Source: Arthrobacter sp. CDRTa11 (lineage in GTDB: Bacteria; Actinomycetota; Actinomycetes; Actinomycetales; Micrococcaceae). Taken from it: a stretch of 64,000 nucleotides of DNA. Positions 25,566-57,242 of this stretch are shown in pieces. Every line of letters starts with the position of its first letter. Positions within the stretch are counted from its first letter, which is position 1. The stretch spans positions 62,001 to 126,000 of the forward strand of contig NZ_CP044532.1 in assembly GCF_026427775.1 (NCBI RefSeq), read 5' to 3'. Position numbers and translations under genes: made by a program. The notes under the pieces are model-generated. The model had not been told where the DNA came from, searched no databases, and worked only from the letters and a program-made list of their open reading frames with translations.

Positions 25566-26498
25566 CTAGTCCGCGGCGGCCGGCAGAACGATGTCGAAGC
25601 GGGTTCGGGCCCAGGTGCGATTTCCGAGGTCGCGCCCGTCGGGAGCAGGGGTTCCGGCGTCCTGCTGGACGAAGTCCTTGATGAGGGATTCCTTGACACC
25701 AAAAACGGTGTCGTATTTCAACAGTTCGTCCCCGCGGACGAAGATGTGGGTGACCAGTGTCCTCAGGCCAGGTTTGGTGACCATGAAGTGCAGGTGTGAC
25801 GCGCGCATGGGGGAGCGTCCAACGGCTTCCAGCATCTGCCCGACGGGGCCGTCGTGGGGGATGGGGTATGGGGTTGGGGTCAGTCCCCAGAAGCGGTAGT
25901 TTCCGTCTTCGTCGCTGTAGAGGTGGGCTCGGCCGGACACGCGCTGGTCGTCGTACTGCACGTCGTAGAAGCCGTCTTCGTCTGCTTCCCATACTTCGAT
26001 TCGGGCGTGGGGGACCGGGTTTCCGTCCGTGTCCTTGACGCTTCCTTCGATCCAGCAGGGTTCTCCTGGTGCGGCTCCGGCGATGTCTCCGCCGTTTTCG
26101 ATGCGGGGAGCGTCGTCTACGAAGAAGGGGCCGAAAACGGTGGCTTCGGTTGCGTCGCCGTGGGCTTCGTTGTTGACGTTGATGGTCTGCATTGAGGCGC
26201 CGAAGACGTCGGAGAGCAGGATGAATTCCTGTCGGCGGTCGTCGGTGATGTGGCCGACGGCGGTGAGGAAATCAATGGCTTTGTTCCATTCGGCTTCGGT
26301 GAGCCGGACGTCGCGGATGAAGTTGTGCAGATGGGTTACGAGTGACTGCATCAGTTGCTTTAGCCGCGGATCCTGGCAGTCATCGAAGGAGCGCAGCACG
26401 TTGCGGACCAGCTGTTCCTCAACGTTTTGTTGTGCCTCAGACACGTACTTGCTGCCGGGAACGCTCTCGGTTTCGGGGACGCGGGTCTGCTGGGTCAT
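25566..26498 (-). CDS. hydroxyquinol 1,2-dioxygenase, module A copy
   Basis: 310 aa intradiol ring-cleaving dioxygenase. It has an N-terminal helical dimerisation domain (about 25-100; [20 protein letters not shown]) and a catalytic beta-sandwich. The non-haem Fe(III) ligands are seen as Tyr in GFYDVQY, Tyr in [11 protein letters not shown], and two His in SHLHFMVT. The length and the [14 protein letters not shown] segment fit hydroxyquinol (1,2,4-trihydroxybenzene) dioxygenases rather than catechol enzymes. The product is maleylacetate, handled by the reductase in the same operon. Last gene of the leftward operon that starts at 32806. A second copy is at 50468. Confidence 0.9.
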
Positions 26499-26547
26499 TG
26501 TCGTTTCCTCGCTGTTGTTTGTGGGTGTCGAGTATGCGCGCAGGGAC

Positions 26548-27486
26548 TCAGAGTTGGGAGGCCTCGCCGAGAAGCTGCAGATCCTTGGTGGTCAGTTGGA
26601 TCTGCATTGATTCAACGAGGGGCGAGAGTTGGTCGGTTGTGCGGGCGCTGGCGATGGGGGCCGCGACACCGTTCTGCGCTGCGAGCCATGCCAGGGCGAT
26701 GGATGCGGGCTGGGTGGAGTGCTCATCGGCGACGCTTTTGACTGCGTCGATGACTTTCCGGCCATGGGCGTTGAGGTACTTGGCCGCGTCGGGGGCGCGG
26801 GGACTTTCGATTTCCTCGCCGTTGTCGTATTTTCCGGTCAGGAAGCCGTGGGCGAGGGAGTAGTAGGGCACGACGGCGAGGCCGTGGGTGCGGGCCAGAG
26901 GGAGGACATCGGCTTCAATTCCTCGTTCGACGAGGTTGTATTGGGGCTCTATGACGACGGGCGGGTGAAATCCTTCGCGGGCGCTGATGTCGAGCCATTC
27001 TTTGATTCGTTCCGCTGTGTAGTTCGAGATGCCGATTGAGCGGATTTTTCCTTGATCGACGAGTTCGGACAGTGCCGCGATGCTCTCGATGAGGGGTGTT
27101 GAGGGGTCGTCGAAGTGCGCGTAGTAGATGTCAACGGCGTCGATGTCGAGGCGGGTCAGCGAGGCGTCGATCGCAGCCCGGATCGTTCCGGGGGCCATAC
27201 CGAGGAATTGCGGGTGGTGACTTACCTTGGTGGCGATGACGAGCTCGTCGCGGTCAGATCTGCCGGCCAGCCATTTGCCGATGATCGTTTCCGACTCCCC
27301 GCCTGTGTTTCCCTCGGCCCAGAACGAGTAGGAGTCGGCGGTGTCCAGGAAGTTCCCACCAGCAGCGACGTAGCCGTCGAGGACTGCATGCGATGTTTCG
27401 GTGTCGGCGGTCCAGCCGAAGACGTTCGTGCCGAGTGCGAGTGGGGATACCGCGATTCCTGGGGCGATGGTCCGATTGGCGACCAA
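26548..27486 (-). CDS. aldo/keto reductase
   Basis: 312 aa, standard (beta/alpha)8 length. NAD(P)H-dependent oxidoreductase. The N-terminus [20 protein letters not shown] and the catalytic-loop region [19 protein letters not shown] hold the Asp/Tyr pair, Lys lies in VIATKVSHH, and His/Asp in [11 protein letters not shown]. The TTG start has AGGAGG seven bases upstream. It lies between maleylacetate reductase and hydroxyquinol dioxygenase in the same operon, so it probably acts on the imported compound or an intermediate upstream of the aromatic ring. Module B has no homologous gene and uses an SDR and a zinc-type dehydrogenase instead. Confidence 0.85.
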
Positions 27487-27533
27487 GGTCTGCCTCCTAG
27501 TTGATTTTTCTAATGTGTGGGACGGGGTGGAGT

Positions 27534-27571
27534 AGGACCCTCCTGTGGGCGTACCCGCGAGGGAGGGTCCT
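27534..27571. terminator. strong intra-operon hairpin
   Basis: AGGACCCTCC (27534-27543) pairs perfectly with GGAGGGTCCT (27562-27571), with further GGG/CCC pairing inside. It lies between the maleylacetate reductase and aldo/keto reductase genes. There is no T-tract, so it may be an RNA-stability or attenuation element rather than a full terminator. Confidence 0.5.
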
Positions 27572-27636
27572 GCTCGGCGTGGCTCCCGCGAGGCGCCACA
27601 CCCTCACCTGATGGCCAGGGCGTGGACCTTTGGGGC

Positions 27637-28716
27637 TCAGACGGTGGGGTTGGCGCTCGGTGGCTTGCCGGCCCATGCCGCGTGCAGGATGCCGCGGACG
27701 TCGTCGTAGGTGATCGGGCGGGGGTTGCCGTAAGAGCGGCTGGTCGCTTCTTCGGCGATGCGGTCGATGTCTTCTTCCTTCATGCCCAGCTCGGCCAGGG
27801 ACCGGGGGGCATTCAGTTCGCCGGCGATCTGCCACAGCCTCTCGGCGGGATCTGCGGCGCCACCGAGTGCCCGTGACAGGGCGGCCGTCGCTTCGGGAGC
27901 GGCGGGCTGGTTGAAGGCCAGGGCGTGGGGGAGGACGACGGTGTGGGTTTGGGCGTGCGGCAGGTTGAGGGTTCCGCCGAGTGCGTGGCAGAGCTTGTGG
28001 TGCAGTGACATGGTGGTGGCGCCCAGGCAGGCACCGCACAGCCACGATCCGTAGAGGGCGTTGCTGCGGGCTTCGAGGTCGGAGCTGTCGGCCACGATCG
28101 CGGGCAGCGCTGCGACGAGGGCCCGGACGCCCTCTTCGGCCATCAGCGAGATGATCGGCGTTGCATCCGGGGCGTAGAGGGCTTCCACGGCGTGGGCGAT
28201 GGCGTTGATGCCGCTGGTCACGGACATGGCGGCCGGCAGGGTCGCCGTGAGCTCGGGATCGTAGACGACGCTGCGGGGCAGAACCCGGGGGTCCTTGCCG
28301 GTTTCCTTGCGTCCGTCGGTGGTCAGTCCCCAGACGGGGGTCATTTCTGATCCGGCGTACGTGGTGGGGACGGCAACGATCGGCAGCCCGTGCTTGAGGG
28401 CGATTGCTTTGCCGAGTCCGATTGCTGAGCCGCCGCCGACAGCGACGCACCCGTCGGCACCGACCCTGGCAGCTTCGTCGCTTGCCCGCTGTGCAACTTC
28501 GTTGGGCACGTGCATGACGGCTTCCGGGAGAACACCGACGCAGCGCTCACCCAAGGCCTCGGCTACGCGGTTGCCGGTCTCTTCCTGTTCAGGAGAGCAT
28601 AGGACCAGGACGCGCTTTAGGCCGATCTGGTCGAGTTCTTCGGGAAGGGTCGAGAGGGAGTTGACGCCGAAGCGCACCCGCATGGGGAGGGCTTCGTATA
28701 CAAACTGGTGGGTCAT
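27637..28716 (-). CDS. maleylacetate reductase, module A copy
   Basis: 359 aa from the ATG at 28716, with AAAGGAG upstream; a start 15 codons earlier lacks support. Iron-type alcohol dehydrogenase family: MRVRFGVNSL, the NAD-binding AVGGGSAIGLGKAIA, VPTTYAGSEMTPVWG, and TSGINAIAHAVEALYAPDA are the maleylacetate reductase signature, with LHHKLCHALGGTLNLPHAQT later. It reduces maleylacetate to 3-oxoadipate with NAD(P)H, the step after hydroxyquinol cleavage. It lies between the importer permease (77 bp gap) and the aldo/keto reductase. Module B carries a close paralogue at 51412. Confidence 0.92.
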   Translation of the reverse strand: MTHQFVYEALPMRVRFGVNSLSTLPEELDQIGLKRVLVLCSPEQEETGNRVAEALGERCVGVLPEAVMHVPNEVAQRASDEAARVGADGCVAVGGGSAIGLGKAIALKHGLPIVAVPTTYAGSEMTPVWGLTTDGRKETGKDPRVLPRSVVYDPELTATLPAAMSVTSGINAIAHAVEALYAPDATPIISLMAEEGVRALVAALPAIVADSSDLEARSNALYGSWLCGACLGATTMSLHHKLCHALGGTLNLPHAQTHTVVLPHALAFNQPAAPEATAALSRALGGAADPAERLWQIAGELNAPRSLAELGMKEEDIDRIAEEATSRSYGNPRPITYDDVRGILHAAWAGKPPSANPTV

Positions 28717-28793
28717 CAGATGGACTCCTTTGAAGAGGTGTTGTCCGCGTAAATGGTTCATTTCACGCGGGTGCTTCTTAGCGCGGGAAGCGG

Positions 28794-30035
28794 TTAGCGG
28801 GAACCGGCGCGGCGCTTGTTGTAGATATCGAAGGCGACGGCCAGCATCAGGACCAGGCCCTTGACGACTGATTGCACGGACTGGTCGATGCCCATCAGCT
28901 GCATGCCGTTGCTCATGACGGCCATGATCAGGCCGCCGGCCATGGCTCCCACGACTTTTCCGACGCCGCCGGTAACGGCCGCGCCGCCGATGAAAGCCGC
29001 GGCAATCGCGTCGAGTTCGAACATGTTGCCCGCGCCGGGCTGGGCGCCGTTGGAGCGCGAGGAGAAAACGATACCGGCCACTGCGGAGAGGAGGCCCATG
29101 TTGACGAAGATCCAGAAGTTGACGGTGCGGACCTTGACACCAGAGAGGGCTGCTGCGACGACGTTGCCGCCGATGGCGTAGACCTGGCGGCCGAAGACGC
29201 TTCGCTGCATGATGACGCTGTAGACCATGATGAGGATGGCCAGCATGATCAGGACAAGCGGCATGCCGCGGGCGATGGCCAGCTGCCAGGCGAAGACCAT
29301 GACTGCGATGGCGATAACGAGGATTTTGGCGATGAACAGCGGAAATGACGGGACGAGCTGGTTGTAGCTGATCAGGGTCTTGCGGGTCCGGTACTGGTTG
29401 AAGGAGTAGCCGATCACGGCGATGGCGAAGATGAGGAGTGTGAAGAGGTCGTATCCTTGGCCCCCGAGCAGACCGTTGAGGAAGCCGGATGCGATCTGGC
29501 CGTAGTCAGCCGGGAAGGGAGAGAGGGAGACGTTGTTGAGCACGACCAGGGTCAGGCCGCGGAAGAGGAGCATTCCGGCGAGGGTGACGATGAACGCAGG
29601 AATTCCGACGTAGGCGACCCAGTATCCGTGCCAGGCTCCAATAGCGAGGCCGGTGGCGAGGGCTGCGAGGACGCCGACCCACCAGGGCTGTCCGTATTGG
29701 ATGACGACGACCGCCGACACTGCGCCGGTCAAGGCGACGACGGAGCCCACGGAGAGGTCGATGTGACCGGCGATGATCACGATGACCATGCCGATGGCCA
29801 GGATCAGGATGTAGGAGTACTGCAGGACGATGTTGGTGATGTTTCCGGGACCGAGTGAGGCGCCGCCGGTGAGTCCTGCGAACAGGGCCACGATGGCCAC
29901 GAGTGCGATGTAAATGCCGCTGGTACGCAAGTTACGGGTTAACAGCTCACGGATTTCGCTGGTTCCGGTGTGGACGACCGCTGCTGCGGACGGCGCATCT
30001 TTCCTTTGGGATCCCCGGGGGGCTGTCACGGTCAT
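28794..30035 (-). CDS. sugar ABC transporter permease (MmsB/XylH type)
   Basis: 413 aa with about ten membrane helices after a ~35-residue polar N-terminus. Contains the family segments [40 protein letters not shown] and [20 protein letters not shown]. The long form with an extra ~60-residue insertion (near 210-250) matches the XylH/MmsB/GguB group that imports xylose, arabinose, galactose and similar pentoses or hexoses. The start overlaps the ATPase stop (ATGA). Being in one operon with hydroxyquinol genes, its real cargo may be a cyclic polyol or a glycoside. Confidence 0.88.
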
Positions 30036-31570
30036 GCTGTGAGTTCCTTCTCTTTGGTCATGAGTGTCATGAGGCGTTCCTCGGATGCTTCAGCCGCGGG
30101 CAGCTGCCCGGTGATCCGGCCTGCAGAAAGCGCGTAGATGCGGTCGCAGGTGCCGAGCAGTTCGAGCAGGTCCGAGGAAATGACCACGACTGCCTTTCCG
30201 GCGTCCACGAAGCTGTTGATGAGGGTGTAAATTTCGTATTTCGCGCCGACATCAATGCCGCGGGTGGGTTCGTCCAAGATCAGTACTTCCGGGTCGGTGA
30301 GCAACCACTTCGAGAGGACGACCTTTTGCTGGTTCCCGCCGGAGAGCTTGCCGACGATCGATTTCACGTTGGGGGCTTTGATGTTCATCGACTTCATCGC
30401 GAACTCAGCCGCACGGGCCTCTTCGTGGTGATTGACGAATCCCCAGCTCGCAAGTTTGCCCAGTGATGCGGCTGAGATGTTGCGGGCGATGTCATCGATG
30501 AGGTTGAGGCCAAAGGCCTTGCGGTCTTCGGTGGCGTAGGCGATCCGTGCTTCGATGGCTGCGGCGACGGATCGGGTGTGGATCTCCTTGCCGTGCATGA
30601 AGATTCTGCCTGATACGAACTTGCCGTAGGAGCGGCCGAACAGGCTCATCATCAGTTCGGTGCGTCCGGCACCCATGAGTCCGGCGACGCCGATGACTTC
30701 TCCGGCGCGGACTTCAAAGCTGGCGCCATCGACGACCAGACGGTCCTGGGTGGGGTGCCTGACCGTCCAGTCCTCCACCCGGAGAACGACCTCGCCCGGG
30801 TTCGAATCACGGTCGGGATAGAACGCTTCGAGGTCCCGGCCGACCATTCCGCGGATTATGCGGTCGACGTTCACGTCGGGGTCCGTCATGTCCAGGGTTT
30901 CCACGGTCTTTCCGTCCCGGATGACGGTGGTGTGGTCGGCAATTGCTTCGATTTCGTTGAGTTTGTGGGAAATGATGATCGAGGTGATGCCGCGGTCACG
31001 GAGGGCCCGGACCAAGTCGAGCAGGTGGGCGGAGTCGTTATCGTTGAGCGCCGCGGTCGGCTCGTCGAGGATGAGCAGCTGCACTTCCTTGGACAGGGCT
31101 TTGGCGATTTCAACCAGTTGCTGCTTGCCGACGCCAAGCTGTCCGACCGGGGTAGTGGGCTCTTCCCGCAGACCGACGGATGCGAGGAGTTCGGCGGCCT
31201 CGGCGTTCGTCTTGTGCCAGTCGATCAGTCCTGATGCGCCGCGGCGCTCGTTGCCCAGGAAGATGTTCTCGGCGATCGACAGGTGCGGCACGAGGGCCAG
31301 TTCCTGGTGGATGATCACGATGCCGGCGTGCTCTGAATCCCGGATGCCGGAGAAAGAACACGTTTGTCCCTTGAACAGGATCTCACCCCCGTAGCTGCCG
31401 GCGGGGTAGACGCCGGAGAGGACTTTCATGAGGGTGGACTTCCCTGCGCCGTTCTCGCCGCAGATCGCGTGGACCTCACCGCGTTCCACGGCCAGCGATA
31501 CGCCGGAGAGCGCTTTGACGCCGGGGAAGGTCTTGGTGATGGATTGCATTTCCAGGATGTGGTCGGCCAT
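30032..31570 (-). CDS. sugar ABC transporter ATP-binding protein (MmsA/XylG type)
   Basis: 512 aa with two ABC domains. Domain 1 has Walker [10 protein letters not shown] near residue 40 and Walker [12 protein letters not shown]. Domain 2 has signature [14 protein letters not shown] and Walker [15 protein letters not shown]. As usual in this family the Walker A of domain 2 is altered ([16 protein letters not shown]). It powers import with the permease it overlaps and the binding protein upstream (75 bp gap). The sequence is intact, unlike the ATPase remnant at 42927. Confidence 0.9.
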
Positions 31571-31645
31571 TGGCCCGCCGTCCTATCGGTCTTGTAGGGG
31601 AGAGGGGGAGGGGAGGGGCACTGTGTGCCCCTCCCTGAAGGGCGC

Positions 31646-32806
31646 TTACTGAAGGCGGCCGGCTGCGACCTCTTCAGCGGTGTAGTAGCCGGAGTCGATC
31701 AGGGCGGACTTGATGTTGTCCTTGTAGATCGGCTGGATCGGCACGAGGAACGAGGGGACGACCTTGGATCCGTTGTCATAAGACTTGGTGTCGTTGACCT
31801 CAGGGTCTTTTCCTGCCAGCAGGTCCTGAGACGCCTTTACAGTCTGTGCGGCCAAGGCGCGGGTGTCCTTGAACACGGTGGAGAACTGCACATCGTCGTT
31901 GACGAACTTGACGGAGGCAACCTCGGCGTCCTGGCCGGTCGTGACGGGCATCGGCTTGGGCTGTGAGGACAGGGTCGGGCCGTAGCCGGCGTTGCCCAGG
32001 GAGGTGATGACGCCGCGGGCGACGCTGTCATTGGGGGTAAGGACGCCGTCGAGCTTGGCTGCTCCGCCGTTGTAGCTGGCGGTCAGCAGGTTGTCCATGC
32101 GTTCCTGGGCCTTTTGTTGTGACCAGTTCTCGGTTGCCACCTGTGCGAGCTTGTTTTGTCCCGACTTCACCACAAGGGTGCCGTTGTCGATGTATTTCTG
32201 CAGAACGGACATGCCGCCGTTGAAGACGAAGGTTGCGTTGTTGTCATCCAGCGATCCGCCGAACAGTTCGATATTGAACGGTCCCTTGGCGGAACCTTCG
32301 GAGCCGTCCTTGTTCAGGACACCGAGCCCGATGAGAAGCGAGGTGGCCTGCTGGGCGCCGACCTTGAAGTTGTCGAAGGTGACGTAAACGTCAACGTCGG
32401 CGCTGTTCCTGACGAACCGGTCGTAGGAGACGATCGGGATGTTCGAGCTTGCCGCCTGCTGCAGCTGGGGGGACAGGGCCGTTCCGTCCAGCGGTGCCAG
32501 GATCAGCAGATCGGCACCTTGGGTCAGCATCTGGTCTACCTGCTGCTGCTGGGTGGGGATGTCGTTATTGGCGTACTGGAGGTCCACCTGGTAACCGACC
32601 TTTTCCAGCCCTTCCTTGATGGCCTTACCGTCGGTGATCCAGCGCTCTTCATCCTGGCTGGGCAGTGAAACTCCGATGCGGGTGTCGGCGGGAGCCTGTG
32701 TCCCTCCGCCGGCCGCGTTGCCGCTGCCTGCACCCCCTCCTGCACAACCAGCAAGTACCAGTGACGTGGCTGCAGTTGCAGCGAACATGACAATTTTCTT
32801 AAACAC
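31646..32806 (-). CDS. multiple-monosaccharide-type binding lipoprotein (ChvE-like)
   Basis: 386 aa from a GTG with AAGGAGGAG upstream. Lipoprotein signal peptide with lipobox LVLAGC, then a Gly-rich linker. Periplasmic-binding fold type I: IGVSLPSQDEERWITDGKAI, then GADLLILAPLDGTALSPQ and IPIVSYDRFV. It is most like the ChvE/XylF group of cyclic-sugar receptors. It is first gene of the leftward operon through importer, maleylacetate reductase, aldo/keto reductase and hydroxyquinol dioxygenase. The promoter region to its right contains an IclR-type operator. Confidence 0.88.
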   Translation of the reverse strand: MFKKIVMFAATAATSLVLAGCAGGGAGSGNAAGGGTQAPADTRIGVSLPSQDEERWITDGKAIKEGLEKVGYQVDLQYANNDIPTQQQQVDQMLTQGADLLILAPLDGTALSPQLQQAASSNIPIVSYDRFVRNSADVDVYVTFDNFKVGAQQATSLLIGLGVLNKDGSEGSAKGPFNIELFGGSLDDNNATFVFNGGMSVLQKYIDNGTLVVKSGQNKLAQVATENWSQQKAQERMDNLLTASYNGGAAKLDGVLTPNDSVARGVITSLGNAGYGPTLSSQPKPMPVTTGQDAEVASVKFVNDDVQFSTVFKDTRALAAQTVKASQDLLAGKDPEVNDTKSYDNGSKVVPSFLVPIQPIYKDNIKSALIDSGYYTAEEVAAGRLQ

Positions 32807-32892
32807 CGTTCTCCTCCTTTGGAGAGCCGCGTGACGCTGAAGGCGTCAGTTCTGCGTCGGCAGGACCGCCGCGCCTGAAATTTAGATGTGAT

Positions 32893-32940
32893 TGCGAGCA
32901 CTTGGTGCCGTACAATGGACACCATGTTCGCACAGTACCA
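32893..32940. promoter_or_regulatory. IclR-type operators in the divergent promoter, copy 2
   Basis: Two layers are visible. A long imperfect inverted repeat has TGCGAGCA-CT-TGGTG (32893-32907) against CACCA-TGTTCGCA (32920-32932). Overlapping it, ATGGACACCATGTTCG (32915-32930) matches the site before the other tandem-IclR gene. It sits between the leftward transporter/hydroxyquinol operon and the rightward IclR gene, so one regulator could control both. Confidence 0.65.
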
Positions 32941-33114
32941 GCTTGGAAAGCTAGTGGTGTTCCACATTACATTTTGTGCGCACCTCGGGTCGGGCCTTCA
33001 GGGCACCTGGGGCCGGACGGACAACATTGGCTGAAATGGCCAAATGCAGCGCATCGCGTGAGGTTTAGTGACCTGGATGCTATCGGCTCCTAGGGGCCAG
33101 GAAAGAGGCGGTTG

Positions 33115-34725: not shown

Positions 34726-34751
34726 CCGAAGGCCCCCTCCATGAAATGCTT

Positions 34752-49658: not shown

Positions 49659-49694
49659 CCGAGCCCGCCACTTATAACGCAAGGAGCGCACATC

Positions 49695-50423
49695 GTGAGT
49701 TCACCATCCTTTGACGGGAAGATCGCCATCGTCACCGGAGCGGCCAGCGGCATCGGCCACGCCACAGCACTGGCACTGGCCGCACAGGGTGCGACCGTCT
49801 ACGGAGCCGACATAGCCGCCGGGGACGCAGCAGACGGGACCATCCAGTGGCGGCGCCTCGACGTCGCCGAAGAAGACGGCTGGAAGGCACTCACGGAAGA
49901 AGTGCTCCATGCCCACGGCCGGATCGACGTCCTGGTAAACAACGCAGGCCTGGTTGGATCGTACGACTCGATCACGGATATCGACATCCAGGACTGGCAC
50001 CGGATCATCTCCATCAACCAGACCGGCGTCTTCCTGGGAATGCGCTTCGTCGCACCGGCCATGCTGGCGCAGGAATCCGGATCCATCGTGAACGTCTCGT
50101 CCATCTGGGGACTTGTCGGAGCAGCCGGCGTCGCCGCCTATCAGGCATCCAAGGGTGCCGTCACCATGATGACGAAGAACGCCTCCGCCACCTGGGCAGC
50201 GCAGGGGATCCGCGTGAACTCGGTCCACCCCGGGCTGATCACAACACCCTTGACGGAAAACCAGGATCAGGCCATTTCCGATGAGCTGATCGCCAAGACC
50301 CCCATGCACAGGGCCGGAAAGGCCAGCGAAGTCGCCGATGCGATCGTCTATCTCGCCTCCGACAAGGCCTCGTACATCACCGGCGCGCAACTCGTTGTCG
50401 ATGGCGGATTCACCAGCATCTGA
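49695..50423 (+). CDS. SDR-family oxidoreductase, module B
   Basis: 242 aa from a GTG with AAGGAG upstream. Classical SDR: IVTGAASGIGHATALALAAQ, LVNNAGLVGSYDSITD, the Ser in IVNVSSIWGLVG, the Tyr-Lys in YQASKGAVTMM, and closing ITGAQLVVDGGF. NAD(P)-dependent oxidoreductase. It corresponds in operon position to the SDR fragment in the scar at 43160-43342. It follows the importer directly, so it may perform the first oxidation of the imported compound. Confidence 0.88.
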   Translation: MSSPSFDGKIAIVTGAASGIGHATALALAAQGATVYGADIAAGDAADGTIQWRRLDVAEEDGWKALTEEVLHAHGRIDVLVNNAGLVGSYDSITDIDIQDWHRIISINQTGVFLGMRFVAPAMLAQESGSIVNVSSIWGLVGAAGVAAYQASKGAVTMMTKNASATWAAQGIRVNSVHPGLITTPLTENQDQAISDELIAKTPMHRAGKASEVADAIVYLASDKASYITGAQLVVDGGFTSI

Positions 50424-50467
50424 GCCCCACTGACCAGCCGCCCCAGCTCCAAGGAAGGAACAGCACC

Positions 50468-51415
50468 ATGAGCACGGACCTCGGCCCGGGAACACTGACT
50501 GCCGCTGTTATCGACAGTTTCCGCAATACCCCTGATGACCGGCTTCGGACCATCCTGACCAGCCTCACCACCAACCTTCACAACTTCGTTAGGGAGATTG
50601 AACCCACGATCGAAGAATGGGAAACCGCCATCAACTTCCTGACCGCCACAGGCCGGAAGTGCGACTCCGTCCGACAGGAGTTCATCCTCCTCTCCGACGT
50701 GCTGGGCGTGTCCATGATGGTGGAAACGCTCAATGACGCCGAGACTCCGGACGCTACCGACTCCACTGTCCTGGGCCCGTTCCACATGGTCGAATCCCCG
50801 AAGCGTGAACTGGGCGAGAATGCCTCCCCGGAAAGTGAAGGAGAGATCTGCCTGGTCAGGGGGCGCATCCTCTCTGTCACCGGTGAGCCCGTCCCCAATG
50901 CCGCCATCGACATCTGGCAGGCAAATACCAAGGGCTTCTACGACGTCCAGCAACCCGGCATCCAAAGCATCGGCAACGGCCGCGGCCTGTTCACGTCCAA
51001 CGCCGCCGGGGAGTTCTACTTCCGCAGCGTTATCCCCAGCTATTACCCGATCCCGACCGATGGGCCTGTTGGGGACCTTCTCCACGCGACTTCTAGGCAC
51101 CCGAACAGGCCGGCGCACATCCATTTCATCGTCACCGCGCTGGGCTTCCGGCAACTGACGACCCACATCTTTGTTGCCGGCAGCGACTACATCGACTCAG
51201 ACGCCGTTTTCGCCGTGAAGCAGAGCCTGATCGCCGAATTCGTGCCCAACACCTCAGAAGCCGATGCAGCCCGCTACGGGCTCACCTCACCGTTCATGGA
51301 GGCAGTGATCGACATCGTCATCCACCCCGATCTCGTCGACCCGGACATTATCAAGACGGCAGTGATGTCCTCGTCCACTGCACGGATTATCGAAGCACAG
51401 GAGAACACCCGATGA
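50468..51415 (+). CDS. hydroxyquinol 1,2-dioxygenase, module B copy
   Basis: 315 aa intradiol dioxygenase with the same layout as the 25566 gene. N-terminal helical domain ([40 protein letters not shown]), then the beta-sandwich with Fe(III) ligands Tyr in GFYDVQQ, Tyr in PSYYPIPTDGP, and His-x-His in AHIHFIVT. The two copies share most motifs but differ widely outside them, so the duplication is not recent. Its stop overlaps the maleylacetate reductase start (ATGA). Confidence 0.9.
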   Translation: MSTDLGPGTLTAAVIDSFRNTPDDRLRTILTSLTTNLHNFVREIEPTIEEWETAINFLTATGRKCDSVRQEFILLSDVLGVSMMVETLNDAETPDATDSTVLGPFHMVESPKRELGENASPESEGEICLVRGRILSVTGEPVPNAAIDIWQANTKGFYDVQQPGIQSIGNGRGLFTSNAAGEFYFRSVIPSYYPIPTDGPVGDLLHATSRHPNRPAHIHFIVTALGFRQLTTHIFVAGSDYIDSDAVFAVKQSLIAEFVPNTSEADAARYGLTSPFMEAVIDIVIHPDLVDPDIIKTAVMSSSTARIIEAQENTR

Positions 51416-52467
51416 AGGATTTTCAGTACCAGGCACTTCCGATGCGCGTCCGCTTCGGAGCCGGTTCGCTTGCCTCACTTAACGACGAAGTCCTCAACCT
51501 TGGCCTCAAGCGTGTCCTGGTCCTGGCTACACCCTTCCAGGCGGATATGGCCGAAAGGGTTTCACAACAGCTGGGCGAGCTCAGCGCCGGGGTGCATGCA
51601 GAAGCTGAAATGCATGTGCCCATCGAATCCGCCCACAAAGCGCGTGAAGTAGCTGCTGCTGCCCAGGCCGACGGGTACGTTGCGGTCGGCGGCGGGTCGA
51701 CAACCGGCCTGGGCAAGGCCATCGCTCTGGAGTTCGGCCAGCCCATCATTGCGGTGCCGACTACCTACGCGGGCTCCGAAATGACGCCGGTATGGGGTCT
51801 GACCGCGGACGGCGAGAAAAAGACCGGACGCGACTCCAAGGTTCTACCTACCAGTGTCATTTACGACCCCGAACTTACCGTGTCCCTCCCGGTGAAGATG
51901 TCGGTCACCAGCGGATTCAACGCCATCGCCCACGCCGTGGAAGCGCTGTACGCGCCGGACGGTTCGCCCATCATCTCCCTGATGGCCGAGGAGGGCACCC
52001 GTGCCCTGCTCGAAGCGATGCCAAAGATCGTCGAGGACCCGACCAACATCGAAGCGCGCTCCGATGCCCTGTACGGGGCCTGGCTCTGCGGAGCCACATT
52101 GGGTGCGACGACCATGTCCCTGCACCACAAGTTGTGCCACACGCTCGGCGGAACCTTCAACCTTCCCCACGCCGAAACCCACACAGTGGTGCTTCCTTAC
52201 GCCCTGGCCTACAACGCCCAGCACGCCCCGCAGGCGATCGCGGCCCTGCAGCGCGCCACGGGGGCAGACAACCCGGCGGCCCACTTCCGGAAACTGAGCC
52301 TCGCCCTCGGTGCACCGTCGTCCTTGGCCGAGCTGGGCCTGAAGGAATCCGACATCGACAAGATCGTTGAAATCGCCACCAGGAACCCGTACGCCAACCC
52401 GCGGGAAGTAACCCCGGAGGGTATTCGGGAACTTGTCACTGCCGCGCTTCATGGCAGCGACGTCTAA
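51412..52467 (+). CDS. maleylacetate reductase, module B copy
   Basis: 351 aa. Strongly similar to the 27637 gene: QALPMRVRFGAGSL, AVGGGSTTGLGKAIALEFG, VPTTYAGSEMTPVWGLT, TSGFNAIAHAVEALYAPDG and LHHKLCHTLGGTFNLPHAET. It reduces maleylacetate to 3-oxoadipate. Its ATG overlaps the dioxygenase stop, so the two consecutive pathway steps are translationally coupled here, whereas in module A they are separated by the aldo/keto reductase. Confidence 0.92.
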   Translation: MKDFQYQALPMRVRFGAGSLASLNDEVLNLGLKRVLVLATPFQADMAERVSQQLGELSAGVHAEAEMHVPIESAHKAREVAAAAQADGYVAVGGGSTTGLGKAIALEFGQPIIAVPTTYAGSEMTPVWGLTADGEKKTGRDSKVLPTSVIYDPELTVSLPVKMSVTSGFNAIAHAVEALYAPDGSPIISLMAEEGTRALLEAMPKIVEDPTNIEARSDALYGAWLCGATLGATTMSLHHKLCHTLGGTFNLPHAETHTVVLPYALAYNAQHAPQAIAALQRATGADNPAAHFRKLSLALGAPSSLAELGLKESDIDKIVEIATRNPYANPREVTPEGIRELVTAALHGSDV

Positions 52468-52514
52468 CAATCCTCGTTGCTCCTTGTTGCCTGAATCTAC
52501 AGAAAGAACACAAC

Positions 52515-53618
52515 ATGTCTGAGACCGTCAACGACGTGCGAACGGCGTCCGCAGCACCTCCGCGCCGGACCGTGCCGGCCGTCCTGGTCCGCAAAGACGC
52601 CGGCGGCACCGTCACAGTCGAACCCGGCACCGCAACCGTCACCGCACCCAAGGCCACTGAACTCCTGGTCCGGCCCGCTTACGTGGGGGTGTGCGGCACC
52701 GATATCGAAATCCTGCACGGCAGCATGCCGGAATCCTTCAAGATCAATTACCCCCACGTCCTGGGCCATGAATGGTCAGGCATCGTCGTGGAAGCCGGCG
52801 CAGCTGTTGAAGGATTCCACCCCGGGGACCGCGTTCTCGGGCACGGACACCTGGGCGGCAACGACTGGTTCGGTGTCACCCACGATGGAGCCGCCGCCGA
52901 GCTGTTCACCGTCCCGGCCGACATGTGCTTCCACATCCCTGACGAGGTGGATATGCTTACGGCCGCGGTTATTGAACCCTTCGCCTGCGTATTAAACGGA
53001 CTCAAGAAGATCGGCGGCATCAGTGCTGCCGACACGGTCCACGTGCACGGACTCGGAGCAATCGGCCTGAATGCAGTGATCCAGGCTGTTACCGCGGGAG
53101 CGGAAGTCGTCGTATTTGATCCCAGTCCACTTCGTCGCGAAACGGCGATGAAACTGGGGGCGGCGGCTGCCGTTAATCCGCTTGAAACCCCGGACACCAC
53201 AGGTGCGGCAGCAGCAGCCATGGGGCGGCCCTTCGCCGACGTCGTCATCGAAGCGTCCGGCAACTCCGCGGCGCAAGCAGCAGCCCTTGAAAGCGCAGAC
53301 CACAACGGACGCGTCCTGCTGATGGGCGTCTCCACACCAAAGTTTGCGCCTGCACGCTTGGGCCTGGTGCAGGAACGAAATCTCTTGATCACCAGCTCCA
53401 CCGGGGCGCCGGTAGCAGTATGGCCCGCAGCAATCCGCTACGTGGCAAACACCCGCCTCAACCTCGGCGAGATCGTCTCCACCGTCGTCCCGTTCTCCCG
53501 CGGAGACAAAGCCCTCCAAAGGGCACAGGACTCAAGCCGGGAAACGAAGGTCATGCTTGCCCCGGATGCCACCAACGCCGACGGCGTGGCCGCCTCCTCA
53601 ACCCACAAAGCCAACTAA
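52515..53618 (+). CDS. medium-chain dehydrogenase, zinc type without structural zinc loop
   Basis: 367 aa of the sorbitol/threonine dehydrogenase type. Catalytic zinc ligands are seen as Cys in GVCGTDIEIL, His-Glu in LGHEWSGIV, and Glu in VIEPFACVL. The region that normally holds four structural Cys reads VLGHGHLGGNDWFGVTHDG, with none. Rossmann motif VHGLGAIGLNAV near residue 175. NAD(P)-dependent polyol or sugar oxidation is the family role. It lies between maleylacetate reductase and the TIM barrel, both within 50 bp. Likely acts upstream of the aromatic stage. Confidence 0.86.
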   Translation: MSETVNDVRTASAAPPRRTVPAVLVRKDAGGTVTVEPGTATVTAPKATELLVRPAYVGVCGTDIEILHGSMPESFKINYPHVLGHEWSGIVVEAGAAVEGFHPGDRVLGHGHLGGNDWFGVTHDGAAAELFTVPADMCFHIPDEVDMLTAAVIEPFACVLNGLKKIGGISAADTVHVHGLGAIGLNAVIQAVTAGAEVVVFDPSPLRRETAMKLGAAAAVNPLETPDTTGAAAAAMGRPFADVVIEASGNSAAQAAALESADHNGRVLLMGVSTPKFAPARLGLVQERNLLITSSTGAPVAVWPAAIRYVANTRLNLGEIVSTVVPFSRGDKALQRAQDSSRETKVMLAPDATNADGVAASSTHKAN

Positions 53619-53630
53619 CAAAGGACGAAC

Positions 53631-54554
53631 GTGAACGACACGAACATCATTCAGAACCGGGACCTCCTGGCCTCCTGCTGGACCTGGGCAGGAAACGCAG
53701 CACCGCTTCGGGGCGATGAGACGAGCCCTATCGACGTGCGCACCCGGGTTGAGGCTGCCGCCAAGGCAGGCTGGAAGGGACTGGGCTTTATCCACGCCGA
53801 CCTACCGGAGATCGAAAAGACGATTGGTCTCAAGGGGCTCCGCCAGCTGCTGGACGACAACGGCATCATCCACGTCGAGATGGAATTCCTCGCGGACTGG
53901 TGGAAGACCGGCCCCGAACGCGAAGAATCCGATCGCTGGCGCAAGATCCTGTTCAACGCCGCAGAAATCCTCGGCGTCAAAACCATCAAGATCGGCGCCG
54001 AACTCGCACTCGAAGGCGAGCCGGCGCCTGTCGATGAAACCGCGTTCCACCAGGAATTCGACCGGCTCGCCACCCAGGCCGGGGAAGTGGGCACACGCGT
54101 AGCTCTGGAACCGATGCCCATGAACAACCTCAAGACCATCGAAATCGGCGCGAAGTTCATCAGCGAGGTCAACAACCCCCACGGCGGGCTCACCGTCGAC
54201 ACGTGGCACACCAGCCGCGGCGGCACCCGCTACGAAGACCTGGCCGCCATCCTGCCCATGGACAAAGTCTTCATCGTTGAGATCGATGATGCCCATAAGG
54301 ACGTCAGGGGCTCGCTGTGGGAAGACACCATCAATGAGCGTCTGTACCCCGGTGAAGGTGACCTCGACACGGTTGCCTTCGTCAAAGCCATCCACAACGC
54401 CGGATGGCGCGGACACTGGGGCGTGGAAATCCTCGCGGAATCACACCGCCTGCTGCCGTTGGATCAGGCATTGGCACGCGCCCACGATTCAGCCGCGGCG
54501 ACACTCGAGGCAGCGTCCCAACTGATCGCCGCGGAACAGTCCGAAAAGGTCTAA
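53631..54554 (+). CDS. sugar phosphate isomerase/epimerase-like TIM barrel, module B copy
   Basis: 307 aa from a GTG with AAAGGACG upstream. Paralogue of the 35955 protein: shared N-terminal ASCWTWAGNAAPLRGDETSP, VALEPMPMNNL (Glu ligand), LTVDTWHTSRGG (Asp/His ligands), FIVEIDDAHKD, and HWGVEILAESHRLLP. Metal-dependent TIM barrel as in IolE-type dehydratases. The retention of one such gene per module, beside dehydrogenases and hydroxyquinol dioxygenase, is the main argument that it makes the aromatic ring by dehydration. Confidence 0.85.
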   Translation: MNDTNIIQNRDLLASCWTWAGNAAPLRGDETSPIDVRTRVEAAAKAGWKGLGFIHADLPEIEKTIGLKGLRQLLDDNGIIHVEMEFLADWWKTGPEREESDRWRKILFNAAEILGVKTIKIGAELALEGEPAPVDETAFHQEFDRLATQAGEVGTRVALEPMPMNNLKTIEIGAKFISEVNNPHGGLTVDTWHTSRGGTRYEDLAAILPMDKVFIVEIDDAHKDVRGSLWEDTINERLYPGEGDLDTVAFVKAIHNAGWRGHWGVEILAESHRLLPLDQALARAHDSAAATLEAASQLIAAEQSEKV

Positions 54555-54580
54555 CCCGAGCTAATCCGCGTAAGCCTGAC

Positions 54581-54611
54581 CCACGCGCCACCCTGCAGGG
54601 GTGGTGCGTGG
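54581..54611. terminator. hairpin between the module B operon and the XRE gene
   Basis: CCACGCGCCACCC (54581-54593) pairs with GGGTGGTGCGTGG (54599-54611) with one mismatch. It falls between the TIM-barrel stop and the XRE-cupin start, so it may end the operon or attenuate read-through. Confidence 0.55.
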
Positions 54612-54652
54612 CTCACGTCTGCCACGGAGCCTCACAAGAGAAGCGGAACACC

Positions 54653-55384
54653 ATGAGCGCACCAGCCCCCGAGGCACGATCGGACGCCGCCATCCAGCTT
54701 GGCATGCGTCTTCGTGACGCCCGGCAGAGCACCAAGCTCTCCATACGCGAGCTTGCGCGCCGTGTGGACGTCTCCGCCAGCCTCGTTTCACAGATCGAGC
54801 TGGGCCGCACAACACCGTCTGTCGGAACCCTTTACGCCCTCGTATCAGCACTGGGCTTGTCCCTTGATGCGTTACTGCAGGATGCGGGGCATTCTCCGCC
54901 CGCACGTACCAGTCTTCGGGTCGTTGAAACTCCAACCGTCGTTGAAGACGGGCAGCCTCGGTCATCCGAAGGTGCGGTGAGACCTCTGGTGCCATCTACA
55001 GGGAACAACGAACTTCCCGGACTCCTGGAAGCGAAGGACCGTCCAAAACTACGCGTCGATGGTGTCCTCTGGGAGCGACTCACCGCAGAGAACGACCCCA
55101 ATGTGGAACTACTCCGAGTGACGTACGGAAGCGGCACTGAATCCTGCCCGCCCGACAACCTCATGCGGCACGGTGGACACGAGTACTTCCACATCCTTGA
55201 AGGAAGACTCAACGTGGAAGCCGGCTCCTCCGCAGGAACCCTCAAAGCCGGCGACAGCATCAACTTCGTATCCTCCGCGCCTCACCGGCTCAGCAATCCT
55301 TTCAACGAAGATTGCATCGCAATTTGGGTGGTGGTCGGCCGGCGAAGCCATCAGCAGGATAACCCGGTCTCACCGGTCGCATAG
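54653..55384 (+). CDS. XRE-family regulator with C-terminal cupin, second copy
   Basis: 243 aa from the ATG at 54653; the frame is open further upstream but that part covers the hairpin and has no HTH character. HTH at about 15-75 (LRDARQSTKLSIRELARRVD, SASLVSQIELGRTTPSVGT). The cupin at about 150-235 has ESCPPDNLMRHGGHEYFHIL, LKAGDSINFVS and PHRLSNPFNEDCIAIW. It resembles the 44755 protein throughout. The two bracket the module B operon; one may be local repressor and the other a second sensor. Confidence 0.87.
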   Translation: MSAPAPEARSDAAIQLGMRLRDARQSTKLSIRELARRVDVSASLVSQIELGRTTPSVGTLYALVSALGLSLDALLQDAGHSPPARTSLRVVETPTVVEDGQPRSSEGAVRPLVPSTGNNELPGLLEAKDRPKLRVDGVLWERLTAENDPNVELLRVTYGSGTESCPPDNLMRHGGHEYFHILEGRLNVEAGSSAGTLKAGDSINFVSSAPHRLSNPFNEDCIAIWVVVGRRSHQQDNPVSPVA

Positions 55385-55408
55385 GTAAGCAATAGATACA
55401 ACCATCAC

Positions 55409-55732
55409 ATGCACTCACGGAGCCTTGAAACGGAGTCCCAGTTGAATTCGTCATCCACACATAATTGGGGTCAGAAGCCTGCTGGCGAGGCGCAGCAAAG
55501 CGATGTGGCCACTCCTGCGCATTGGGGCGAGCTGTGCCCTGGTGACCACGTAAGGCTTGTTTGCGCCAAAACTTCCCACTCCGGAATTGTTGACGCGGCA
55601 TCTGCTGACGGTCAGTACCTGTGGCTGCTTCTCAGCGGCGGATTCGGCCGCCGCCTATTTACTAGAGCTGAAGTTGCCAGGACTTACGTCGATCCGATGG
55701 ACCTTGCCAAGCGGTCACGACCAGGGCTCTGA
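55409..55732 (+). CDS. small SH3-like protein, second copy
   Basis: 107 aa from an ATG; a TTG at 55442 with GGAG upstream is an alternative start. The N-terminal ~40 residues are polar and low in complexity. The C-terminal part is one small beta-barrel, HWGELCPGDHVRLVCAKTSH then SGIVDAASADGQYLWLLLSG and GRRLFTRAEV. The same G-D-x-V / G-x-V / W / G-R-R pattern occurs in the 38080 protein of module A. Family not recognised, no known function. Confidence 0.5.
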   Translation: MHSRSLETESQLNSSSTHNWGQKPAGEAQQSDVATPAHWGELCPGDHVRLVCAKTSHSGIVDAASADGQYLWLLLSGGFGRRLFTRAEVARTYVDPMDLAKRSRPGL

Positions 55733-55870
55733 CCTCACGAACTTCAGTGCGGTTGTAAAAGATGGCGGACCTTATGAATCTTCAGGCACGCCGGTGAGTC
55801 AGGGGACACGCCTTTCACGTCTGCTCAATTGCCGCAACACCGACCAGGCCACCCAGCACAGGAGTGAACG

Positions 55871-56023
55871 ATGAAAATGCTGCTCAACCTTTTGTCGGTC
55901 CTCGTCGATGGCGCCGGTTACGGAGGCGATGGCCCAAAAGGTGGGTTCCCCCAGGGGGTCCTTGTTTCCTTTGCCTGGGAAGGCTGGTGGCAAGATGAGC
56001 CAGATGACGGCTCAACGCCTTAG
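55871..56023 (+). CDS. possible 50-aa protein
   Basis: ATG at 55871 with GGAG seven bases upstream; 50 codons to TAG. It begins MKMLLNLLSVLVDGAG, then a Gly/Pro-rich stretch and an acidic, Trp-rich end (WEGWWQDEPDDGSTP). It lies in the 400-bp gap before the Gfo/Idh/MocA paralogue. It could be real or chance; no family is recognised. Confidence 0.25.
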   Translation: MKMLLNLLSVLVDGAGYGGDGPKGGFPQGVLVSFAWEGWWQDEPDDGSTP

Positions 56024-56132
56024 ATGACCGTGGGTCCAGCGGCCCGCCCAGGCACCGGATCTTGGTCCGTAAGTCGAACCAGGTTCAAATACAACCTCGT
56101 CCTGGTATCAGGATCCGACAGGAGACAGCACT

Positions 56133-57242
56133 TTGAAACCGATCACCGTAGGACTTCTCGGAATCACCCACCCGCACGCCTCCGCCCGGGTCCGCGCATT
56201 GCGCGAAATCGAGGGTGTCGAGGTGGTGGCTGCGGCAGACGACGATCCGCGATTGAAGTACTTCACGGACAAGTACGACATGGAGGCCCTCGATATCGAC
56301 GGGGTGCTCCAGGATGAGCGCATCAACGCGATCATGGTGCATTCAAAGAGCGTCAATATGGTCCCGCACGCCCTGCGCGCGCTTGCGGCGGGAAAATCTG
56401 TCGTCGTGGAGAAGCCGGGCGGCGGAACCGTCGATGACCTGCTGAAGCTGGCCGAGGCGGAGACCATGGCCGCTCCGGGATTGGTAGTCCAGGTCGGCTA
56501 CAACGTCCGCCTGGCGCAGTCGGTCACTCGGGCAAAGGAGCTCATAGACGCCGGGACCATCGGGAATGTGGTCAGTGTGTCGGCCAGAGGCGCAGCCCTG
56601 GCCGGCGAGCATCTCACCGCGCATCTAAACCAGCCAGCGGACATGGGAGGGGCGCTGTGGATCATCGGGTGCCACATGATCGATTCCCTGGTCAGCATGT
56701 TTGGGGTCCCGGAGTCCGTCAATGCGCGAGTGCGCAAGTCCGCGGTGCTCTCGGACGCGTCGAGCCGAGAGGACTCCGCAGCTGTGTTGCTGAATTATCC
56801 CGACAGGTCCGCTACGTTCAGCTTCGACAGCCACGACCGTCTTGAATGGTTCGAAAGCTCAGGTATATCCGTCTACGGCACCGCTGGAATGATCGAAATC
56901 GGCGTCCTTCCCCAAAAGCTGAGGATCTACGTCGAGAAGGACCGCGCCGGTTGGTCGGCTGGCTGGACCGAATGGACGCAGAGCTATTTCACTCCGCCGT
57001 TCGCCCGTACTGATGCGAACAAGTTCTCTGAGCTGCCCGAGTTGGAGAACATCAGCAATTTCCGCACGGAAATGCGCGGATGGATCGACAGCATCCGCAC
57101 TGGTGCATCTGTGGTGGCACCCGTCAAGGATGCCCTTTCCGTGGCACGGATTATCGACGCCTGCTACCGGTCCGAGAAAGAGTTCGGCGCATCAGTTCAA
57201 ATTGCTCACGGCGTGACCGTGGACGCGGAGATCACCTCATGA
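56133..57242 (+). CDS. Gfo/Idh/MocA family oxidoreductase, module B copy
   Basis: 369 aa from a TTG with AGGAGACAG upstream. Near-duplicate of the 34876 protein over its whole length (by eye, roughly four of five residues identical), including the odd cofactor motif VGLLGITHPHASARVRALR, VVVEKPGGG and GGALWIIGCHMIDSL. A 12-residue C-terminal extension is added. The TTG start is conserved between the copies. Their similarity is much greater than that between other paralogous genes of the two modules, so this gene was duplicated or exchanged more recently. It stands alone, after the XRE regulator and small genes. Confidence 0.86.
   Translation: MKPITVGLLGITHPHASARVRALREIEGVEVVAAADDDPRLKYFTDKYDMEALDIDGVLQDERINAIMVHSKSVNMVPHALRALAAGKSVVVEKPGGGTVDDLLKLAEAETMAAPGLVVQVGYNVRLAQSVTRAKELIDAGTIGNVVSVSARGAALAGEHLTAHLNQPADMGGALWIIGCHMIDSLVSMFGVPESVNARVRKSAVLSDASSREDSAAVLLNYPDRSATFSFDSHDRLEWFESSGISVYGTAGMIEIGVLPQKLRIYVEKDRAGWSAGWTEWTQSYFTPPFARTDANKFSELPELENISNFRTEMRGWIDSIRTGASVVAPVKDALSVARIIDACYRSEKEFGASVQIAHGVTVDAEITS

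Follow-up and report, generated by a model that had tools for sequence, protein, structure and literature searches.

Two gene modules of an Arthrobacter chromosome that may turn a cyclitol into hydroxyquinol without an oxygenase

In the present study, we analysed a 64-kb stretch (G000:C1:62001-126000; hereafter the window, in whose numbering positions are given) of a 5.16-Mb Arthrobacter-type chromosome, where two gene modules, module 1 at 25566-37932 and module 2 at 43382-57242, combine a sugar-type ATP-binding cassette (ABC) importer, polyol-type dehydrogenases and a triosephosphate isomerase (TIM) barrel protein with hydroxyquinol 1,2-dioxygenase (HQD) and maleylacetate reductase (MAR). We favour, with moderate confidence, the reading that each module is a catabolic unit in which a cyclitol is oxidised and dehydrated to hydroxyquinol without an oxygenase, after which the ring is opened. 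This reading is supported because the IolG dehydrogenase of module 1 is closest to OxiD of Corynebacterium glutamicum, because that species offers a parallel, because the set recurs in Alphaproteobacteria, because 26/47 TIM-family genes lie near HQD and because the TIM-positive HQD loci of the genus show no flavin hydroxylase relative within 10 kb. It also gains from a canonical IolD and a hydroxylase-fed HQD locus (L078) elsewhere in the genome, from a putative operator whose intergenic sites are confined to module 1, apart from a single one next to a cytochrome b561-like gene, from IolD being the TIM family's other recurrent partner (6/47), and from the chemical precedent for elimination of inositol to 1,2,4-trihydroxybenzene.

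The original prediction, made from the sequence alone, had described two such modules sharing one pcaIJF set, and the genes are indeed found at or near the positions it gave, with significant Pfam matches; PcaJIF (39461-42164, minus strand) is situated between the modules. Its inventory named genes that are all present but overlooked two NTF2-like (DUF4440) genes. The kinds of dehydrogenase it listed are present as well, with the addition that module 1 holds two Gfo/Idh/MocA proteins plus an aldo-keto reductase (AKR). In module 1 the minus strand carries HQD1, AKR, MAR1 and the ABC permease, ATPase and binding protein, and the plus strand a double IclR regulator, GfoA, TIM1 and IolG. Module 2 runs from SDR1 (a short-chain dehydrogenase/reductase, SDR) through an NTF2-like gene, an XRE-cupin regulator, binding protein, ATPase, permease, SDR2, HQD2, MAR2, a zinc dehydrogenase, TIM2 and a further XRE-cupin regulator to GfoB. 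The features are as follows.

23392-23405, plus strand: putative IclR operator TGGACANNNTGTYC, upstream of the first double IclR gene
23561-25123, plus strand: first double IclR regulator (Pfam), adjoining HQD1; 84-91% copies beside HQD1 in L111, L112, L167 and L168
25566-26498, minus strand: HQD1, hydroxyquinol 1,2-dioxygenase by homology (Pfam Dioxygenase_N/_C; 1TMX, 483 bits)
26548-27486, minus strand: AKR (Pfam Aldo_ket_red), not found in L027, L028 and L031
27637-28761, minus strand: MAR1, maleylacetate reductase by homology, start uncertain (Pfam Fe-ADH; maleylacetate reductases in the PDB)
28794-30035, minus strand: CUT2-type ABC permease of module 1 (Pfam BPD_transp_2)
30032-31570, minus strand: sugar-type ABC ATPase of module 1 (Pfam ABC_tran, two stretches)
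31646-32806, minus strand: SBP1, ChvE-type sugar-binding protein (Pfam Peripla_BP_4; ChvE 3urm, 342 bits)
32916-32929, plus strand: putative IclR operator, conserved in relatives
33112-34725, plus strand: second double IclR regulator (two HTH_IclR and two IclR_C stretches, Pfam)
34752-34766, no strand assigned: putative IclR operator, a palindrome; motif also in relatives
34876-35958, plus strand: GfoA, OxiC-like Gfo/Idh/MocA protein (Pfam), catalytic Asp replaced by Ile in the alignment
35955-36839, plus strand: TIM1, AP_endonuc_2 TIM barrel (Pfam), putative keto-cyclitol dehydratase (QuiC 65 bits, IolI 40 bits; fold model, pLDDT 95)
36919-37932, plus strand: IolG-type inositol dehydrogenase, close to C. 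glutamicum OxiD (3EUW, 489 bits; over the TIGR04380 cut-off)
39461-40135, minus strand: PcaJ, CoA transferase subunit B (Pfam CoA_trans)
40184-40837, minus strand: PcaI, CoA transferase subunit A (Pfam CoA_trans)
40854-42164, minus strand: PcaF, thiolase (Pfam Thiolase_N/_C)
42092-42532, minus strand: NTF2-like (DUF4440) protein 1
43382-44182, plus strand: SDR1 (Pfam); copies next to module 2 at L082 (91%) and L137 (97%)
44154-44654, plus strand: NTF2-like (DUF4440) protein 2, start uncertain
44755-45501, minus strand: XRE-cupin regulator 1
45907-46965, plus strand: SBP2, ribose-type sugar-binding protein
47005-48552, plus strand: sugar-type ABC ATPase of module 2
48507-49658, plus strand: CUT2-type ABC permease of module 2
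49695-50423, plus strand: SDR2
50468-51415, plus strand: HQD2, (chloro)hydroxyquinol enzymes ranked over catechol enzymes
51412-52467, plus strand: MAR2, 65% identical to MAR1
52515-53618, plus strand: zinc-type dehydrogenase, scoring best in NCBIfam against scyllo-inosose 3-dehydrogenase IolM but far under its cut-off
53631-54554, plus strand: TIM2, 44% identical to TIM1
54653-55384, plus strand: XRE-cupin regulator 2, likely start inside the longer open reading frame (ORF) 54404-55384
56133-57242, plus strand: GfoB, OxiC-like, 84.6% identical to GfoA

Although GfoA and GfoB are 84.6% identical, the identities of HQD (46%), TIM (44%) and MAR (65%) indicate that the modules are no recent duplication of each other, and both gene sets go beyond a chance assembly because they recur in other genera and in Alphaproteobacteria.

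At the hydroxyquinol end, HQD1 matched the solved hydroxyquinol 1,2-dioxygenase 1TMX with 483 bits against 110 bits for the best catechol dioxygenase in the PDB, and a role as catechol dioxygenase was rejected on these scores. The PDB ranking of HQD2 likewise placed chlorohydroxyquinol/hydroxyquinol enzymes above catechol enzymes, and MAR1 matched solved maleylacetate reductases. Judged by homology, the modules, with the pcaIJF genes between them, appear to hold the dioxygenase of the hydroxyquinol pathway as well as its MAR and beta-ketoadipate CoA transferase/thiolase, so that HQD would convert hydroxyquinol into maleylacetate, MAR would reduce this to beta-ketoadipate, and PcaIJF would yield acetyl-CoA and succinyl-CoA. 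L080 (G000:C1:5010000-5025000) holds a further pcaJIF set that shares 92-95% identity with the window copy, and weak intradiol-dioxygenase and weak TIM matches lie nearby.

The polyol end is marked most clearly by IolG, which exceeds the NCBIfam cut-off for inositol 2-dehydrogenase (TIGR04380; 376.7 vs 355 bits) and whose closest PDB match is 3EUW (489 bits; runner-up 270 bits). According to the relevant passages of PMC9603128, 3EUW is OxiD of C. glutamicum, a purified NAD+ dehydrogenase for myo- and D-chiro-inositol, and the neighbouring OxiC lacks the catalytic Asp (Ile in place), gave no growth support on three inositols and has its function listed as unknown. GfoA resembles OxiC, as judged against this published description only: in our alignment Lys94 and His181 are kept and the catalytic Asp is absent in GfoA, GfoB and the Gfo proteins of Azospirillum and Aureimonas. 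Relatives of GfoA at 76-77% identity occur in Corynebacterium pacaense and C. suranareeae, and DgpA is among its weak PDB matches (39.9 bits). Both binding proteins are of monosaccharide type (SBP1 ChvE-type, SBP2 ribose-type). The modules yielded no member of the IolD, IolB or IolE families; the genome's sole IolD over cut-off lies at 1039050, outside the window, and the IolE model matched only outside the modules, always below cut-off. With IolD and the IolE-like genes lying elsewhere, the canonical inositol (iol) pathway was rejected for the modules.

The original prediction had noted that no flavin or Rieske ring hydroxylase accompanies these genes, and three scans of the window agree: all 29 FAD_binding_3 matches of the genome lie outside it, five hydroxylase/flavin-type reference proteins gave no match at E 1e-4 in 15001-36500 and 40001-62000, and neither a Rieske nor a flavin hydroxylase occurs among the Pfam-scanned ORFs (some small ORFs fell outside that scan). 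The FAD_oxidored protein at 20247-21662 belongs to another family than the flavin hydroxylases. A ring hydroxylase in or near the locus, the mark of the resorcinol/gamma-resorcylate branch, is lacking at the modules and present at L078 (G000:C1:2750000-2769900), the genome's third HQD/MAR locus. With an amidohydrolase_2 protein (perhaps a gamma-resorcylate decarboxylase), an FAD_binding_3 hydroxylase and an MFS transporter, L078 looks, from its gene content, like an ordinary hydroxylase-fed HQD locus.

As a control that starts from HQD, we searched 121 genomes of the genus, 28 of which hold HQD relatives (38 matches at 36 loci, two pairs sharing a locus). The TIM family lies near 10 of the 36 loci, namely our own two and those of G036, G034, G003, G513, G526, G024, G018 and G515. 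With five flavin-enzyme references (the FAD hydroxylases of L078 and L108, HpaB and the flavin reductase of L108, and the LLM protein of L042), a flavin hydroxylase relative (E 1e-8, within 10 kb) was found at 0/10 TIM-positive loci vs 16/26 others (Fisher p 7.6e-4, a guide only, the loci coming from related genomes and being non-independent). There is thus a tendency for an HQD locus to have either the TIM barrel or a hydroxylase. Two matches weigh against this pattern: a 28% FAD-enzyme match at L084 lies just past 10 kb and, if counted, gives 1/10 and p 0.008, and a 76-residue, 41-bit flavin-hydroxylase match lies 5 kb from HQD at L166, at a laxer cut-off only. L082 and L084 extend no further than 6-7 kb from HQD to one side or to both. 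L135 (G454) was counted as TIM-negative, its TIM barrel being of another, distant kind (27% to TIM1), and so was L113, with a distant TIM barrel about 17 kb away. The L135 locus has NTF2-like genes, a distant TIM barrel that is 48% identical to one of Sinorhizobium americanum, and no detected hydroxylase. L113 and L139 (G003:C13) represent a third module type with HQD, MAR, NTF2, SDRs, a zinc dehydrogenase, a sugar ABC importer and a distant TIM barrel (25% to TIM2), where the flavin-hydroxylase signal nearby is at most a weak 76-residue match.

The neighbourhoods of HQD genes, in which the original prediction had proposed to look for recurring dehydrogenase and TIM-barrel partners, contain the set of dehydrogenase, TIM barrel, HQD and MAR in two phyla. 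Arthrobacter, Pseudarthrobacter and Paeniglutamicibacter retain the module-1 set from HQD to IolG, and Sinomonas and Rhodococcus have it minus the AKR and/or ABC genes. On a plasmid of Azospirillum oryzae the order is HQD-TIM-IolG-Gfo-ABC-Dabb-MAR, and on one of Aureimonas sp. ABC-TIM-IolG-Gfo-Dabb-MAR-HQD-pcaIJF, in each case all in the same direction and with no hydroxylase annotated in the stretch. Versions with SDRs occur in Rhizobium leguminosarum, Agrobacterium, Rhodococcus opacus and Shinella; the Shinella stretch has no annotated MAR, no sugar ABC gene was found near the Agrobacterium TIM gene, and no HQD lies near the TIM relatives of Sphingobium or near an archaeal one. The latter (L104) is encoded on a Halobaculum plasmid in an unrelated context. 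Relatives of the NTF2-like proteins stand beside HQD in module-2 loci and in Rhodococcus and are candidates for a second dehydratase or isomerase; not every module yielded an NTF2 or Dabb protein, and a PDB search with the NTF2-like protein returned nothing useful. Arthrobacter sp. VKM Ac-2550 (L028) carries two TIM1-type copies about 5 kb apart, and in Sinomonas (L026:300-2700) fragmentary HQD, MAR and TIM matches adjoin module 1.

Counted from the TIM side, 47 family ORFs divide into 26 with HQD within 12 kb, 6 with IolD, none with both and 15 with neither. A sugar ABC gene is near 24 of the 26 HQD-linked ORFs; one of the 26 (L084) has a relative of the four flavin hydroxylase/reductase references nearby; the LLM flavoprotein, tallied separately, is near in L042. 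For this count four ORFs of duplicate or near-identical loci were removed (L048, L092, L107, L112) while other near-copies stay; L041, L047, L028 and the window contribute two ORFs each; L022 and L028, whose stretches stop short of the expected HQD position, were scored as neither; and L137 and the window had been picked via HQD, so that their TIM-HQD link is by choice. On a tree of the 47 rows the HQD link takes 7 changes against a shuffled mean of 15.0, which implies that it was gained or lost several times; an iol-linked group stands beside the TIM2 group with weak support (88/63). Its HQD labels were taken from MAR for L022 and from papers for the C. glutamicum row, and seven match rows were left out, of which the two of the window were restored by coordinates. 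In a phylum sample (396 genomes, E 1e-20) matches came from 7 genomes, our own and six at no more than 33% identity.

For TIM1 itself, whose closest named matches (96-97%) are Arthrobacter sp. proteins, sequence comparison ranks the dehydratase QuiC (65 bits) over the inosose isomerase IolI (40 bits), and a fold search with TIM1 ties between the two. The predicted model (pLDDT 95) has the TIM-barrel fold of QuiC; YcjR, a 3-keto-glucoside epimerase, is also among the fold matches. TIM1 (294 residues) stays far under the cut-off of the QuiC model NF042435 (635 positions), with 75 vs 1200 bits, and this model is the best NCBIfam match for 7/7 TIM-family members scanned, each far below cut-off. 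To the QuiC active site, which we take to be E134, D165, H168, Q191, S206, R210 and E239 in both numbering and roles, TIM1 aligns E155, D185, H188, E212, T228, R232 and E261, differing by Q to E and S to T. In Curtobacterium (L102) a family member lies within an iol operon that also has a separate IolE-like protein. The TIM barrel is a putative dehydratase.

The chemistry is compatible with such a route. The book-keeping of the original prediction, in which quercitol minus 2H and two waters equals trihydroxybenzene, is correct, and inositol would give hydroxyquinol by loss of three H2O with no net redox change. Among the ketones of the pentol, only that next to the CH2 group yields the 1,2,4 pattern by two beta-eliminations; a C3 ketone leads to pyrogallol, and an inosose, keeping four oxygens, to tetrahydroxybenzene. 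Chemical elimination of myo-inositol to 1,2,4-trihydroxybenzene and of inososes to tetrahydroxybenzenes is described in the part of PMC11467972 concerned with it. In the scheme that we envisage, the CUT2-type importer would take in a small polyol, and an inositol-type dehydrogenase (IolG in module 1, the SDR or zinc enzyme in module 2) would make a keto-cyclitol, from which the QuiC-like TIM barrel would eliminate water. A second elimination to aromatic hydroxyquinol might be carried out by the same TIM protein or by the NTF2-like protein (module 2), or be spontaneous, and GfoA and GfoB might adjust redox or stereochemistry. The most likely substrate is probably a deoxy-inositol of the quercitol type with the ketone formed next to CH2. 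Our second choice is an inositol isomer that is oxidised, dehydrated, reduced and dehydrated twice more with the same net result, a redox-neutral route for which the two or more oxidoreductases of each module leave room. The idea in the original prediction of forming hydroxyquinol by oxidation plus dehydration is thereby strengthened as far as the IolG type, the recurring set, the lack of a detected hydroxylase and the IhtR parallel (below) are concerned; beyond these observations we infer that each module forms one pathway, with a cyclitol as substrate, dehydration by the TIM barrel and hydroxyquinol as product.

Two double-length regulators (23561-25123 and 33112-34725), each with two IclR units per chain, are 54% identical paralogues, and the first adjoins HQD1 here and in four relatives. 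In the intergenic stretches of module 1 we recognised by eye the motif TGGACANNNTGTYC, a putative operator at 23392, 32916 and 34752, which is found in all eleven loci L021-L031 (a single site in L031). With at most one mismatch it occurs 8 times in the window vs 1.95 expected, and exactly 24 times in the genome vs 6 for the reversed control. These 24 matches form 22 sites: three intergenic in module 1, one next to a cytochrome b561-like gene (29.2 bits against a cut-off of 30.1) and 18 inside predicted ORFs. Site 23392 falls inside an 86-aa ORF by one ORF caller and in the gap 22650-23560 of the other ORF list. The scan bears on module 1, since module 2 has other regulators (XRE-cupin). A hydroxylase under the control of the module-1 operator, which would have supplied hydroxyquinol from outside the modules, was rejected, none being found next to the putative sites genome-wide; the co-regulated hydroxylase named as a refuting case by the original prediction was thus not encountered for this module. 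By analogy with IhtR of C. glutamicum, the double IclR proteins are probably local regulators sensing hydroxyquinol.

The C. glutamicum region deserves closer description. The operon oxiC-cg3390-oxiD-oxiE (cg3389-3392, iol2) and deletion strains of C. glutamicum are described in the relevant passages of PMC9603128, according to which iolD is essential and iol2 dispensable on myo-inositol, which argues for a substrate other than myo-inositol. Those of PMC7764795 identify Cg3388/IhtR as an IclR repressor that binds between its own gene and iolT2-rhcM2D2 (inositol transporter, maleylacetate reductase and dioxygenase). Its binding is disturbed most potently by 1,2,4-trihydroxybenzene (>0.05 mM), then by hydroquinone (>0.5 mM) and indole (>4 mM), and hardly by inositol or resorcinol (PMC7764795, same passages). 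A C. glutamicum TIM protein (P0073), which we infer to be Cg3390, is 63% identical to TIM1. The relevant passages of PMC9603128 and PMC7764795 do not link the iol2 half and the iolT2-rhcM2D2 half into one pathway, and no work joining hydroxyquinol with inositol or cyclitol breakdown was among the matches listed for the open-licence PMC literature.

Other explanations must be weighed against this reading. The TIM barrel may instead be an IolI-like inosose isomerase or epimerase, with dehydration left to the OxiC-type Gfo, the NTF2-like or the Dabb protein. This variant, which overlaps our own reading, draws on the tie in fold between IolI and QuiC and on the Curtobacterium member that sits in an iol operon beside a separate IolE-like protein; we consider it rather unlikely in view of the higher sequence score of QuiC, the best NCBIfam matches (7/7, far below cut-off) and the modules in which neither NTF2 nor Dabb was found. 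An aryl glycoside or aryl-cyclitol conjugate is a less likely source, and we judge it improbable: Gfo would oxidise the sugar, the TIM barrel would cleave the 3-keto glycoside by elimination, hydroxyquinol would pass to HQD, and the sugar half would be used elsewhere. The levoglucosan and DgpA systems, in which glycosides are cleaved oxidatively, pair Gfo with a TIM barrel, and the weak DgpA match of GfoA, YcjR among the fold matches and the ChvE-type binding protein fit it. However, the module-1 dehydrogenase scores as an inositol dehydrogenase equivalog close to the tested OxiD, the TIM family recurs with IolD, the importers have monosaccharide-type binding proteins, the Pfam-scanned genes include neither a glycosidase nor a DUF1080 protein, and hydroxyquinol glycosides are, to our knowledge, rare in nature. 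In C-glycoside deglycosidases of the DgpA/B/C type a small beta subunit adjoins the TIM barrel, and none was seen among the Pfam-scanned ORFs (some small ORFs lying outside the scan).

It is also improbable, to a closely similar degree, that hydroxyquinol comes from a distant hydroxylase or the environment and that the polyol genes serve a separate function under a shared regulator. The genome does have 13 FAD_binding_3 matches of at least 60 bits and a hydroxylase-fed HQD locus, and a sugar importer and HQD are not bound to act in the same pathway; against this stand the recurrence of the combination in two phyla with different dehydrogenases, the tendency of TIM and hydroxylase towards mutual exclusion at HQD loci, and the lack of a hydroxylase next to the putative operator. 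Finally, HQD might open tetrahydroxybenzene derived from an ordinary inosose, for which the four oxygens left after two beta-eliminations and the chemical precedent (PMC11467972, in part) speak, but this we hold to be very unlikely, given the closeness of HQD1 to a known hydroxyquinol enzyme, the fit of MAR and PcaIJF with beta-ketoadipate, and the response of IhtR to 1,2,4-trihydroxybenzene (relevant passages of PMC7764795).

Outside the modules, a ModA/SBP_bac_11-like binding protein (38094-39077) adjoins module 1 and is retained in close relatives. A separate cluster at 16784-22649 holds an SBP_bac_1-type ABC importer, an FAD_oxidored-family protein and a GntR-like regulator (recognised by eye), and a carboxyltransferase (CT_A_B/CT_C_D) and biotin carboxylase pair lies at 5403-8827.

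The hydroxyquinol pathway has so far been known as a sink for hydroxylated aromatics. We see an even chance that the modules represent a widespread, undescribed and oxygenase-free entry into it in two phyla, from a deoxy-cyclitol, or redox-neutrally from inositol, by an inositol-type dehydrogenase, an OxiC-type Gfo protein and a QuiC-like TIM dehydratase, and that iol2 and iolT2-rhcM2D2 of C. glutamicum are the same pathway. If so, bacteria would aromatise a sugar alcohol just to cleave the resulting ring, another natural case of the logic that leads from quinate to protocatechuate. It would also offer enzymes producing hydroxyquinol from renewable polyols, suggest functions for OxiC and Cg3390 of the industrial C. 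glutamicum, and predict growth substrates for rhizobia and Arthrobacter.

Among known systems, the canonical myo-inositol (iol) pathway shares IolG with the modules and has TIM relatives near iolD, whereas the modules combine aromatic ring cleavage with no detected IolD, IolB or IolE family member. The resorcinol/gamma-resorcylate hydroxyquinol pathway shares HQD, MAR and the beta-ketoadipate enzymes, but a flavin hydroxylase relative, undetected in the modules, is near 16/26 HQD loci without the TIM barrel. In the quinate/shikimate route to protocatechuate (QuiC, AsbF) a polyol ring is made aromatic by dehydrogenation and TIM-barrel dehydration, and QuiC is the closest sequence of known function to TIM1; unlike there, the product in the window would be without a carboxyl group, and TIM1 is a lone domain, far below the QuiC cut-off, whereas 5hmq is a fusion. 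The iol2/ihtR region of C. glutamicum differs by its secondary transporter, IolT2, from the window with its CUT2 ABC importers and double IclR proteins, but it unites in one region an OxiD-type dehydrogenase, the 63% identical TIM barrel, an OxiC-type Gfo protein (by description), an IclR regulator, and an HQD-type dioxygenase with MAR, just as the window does.

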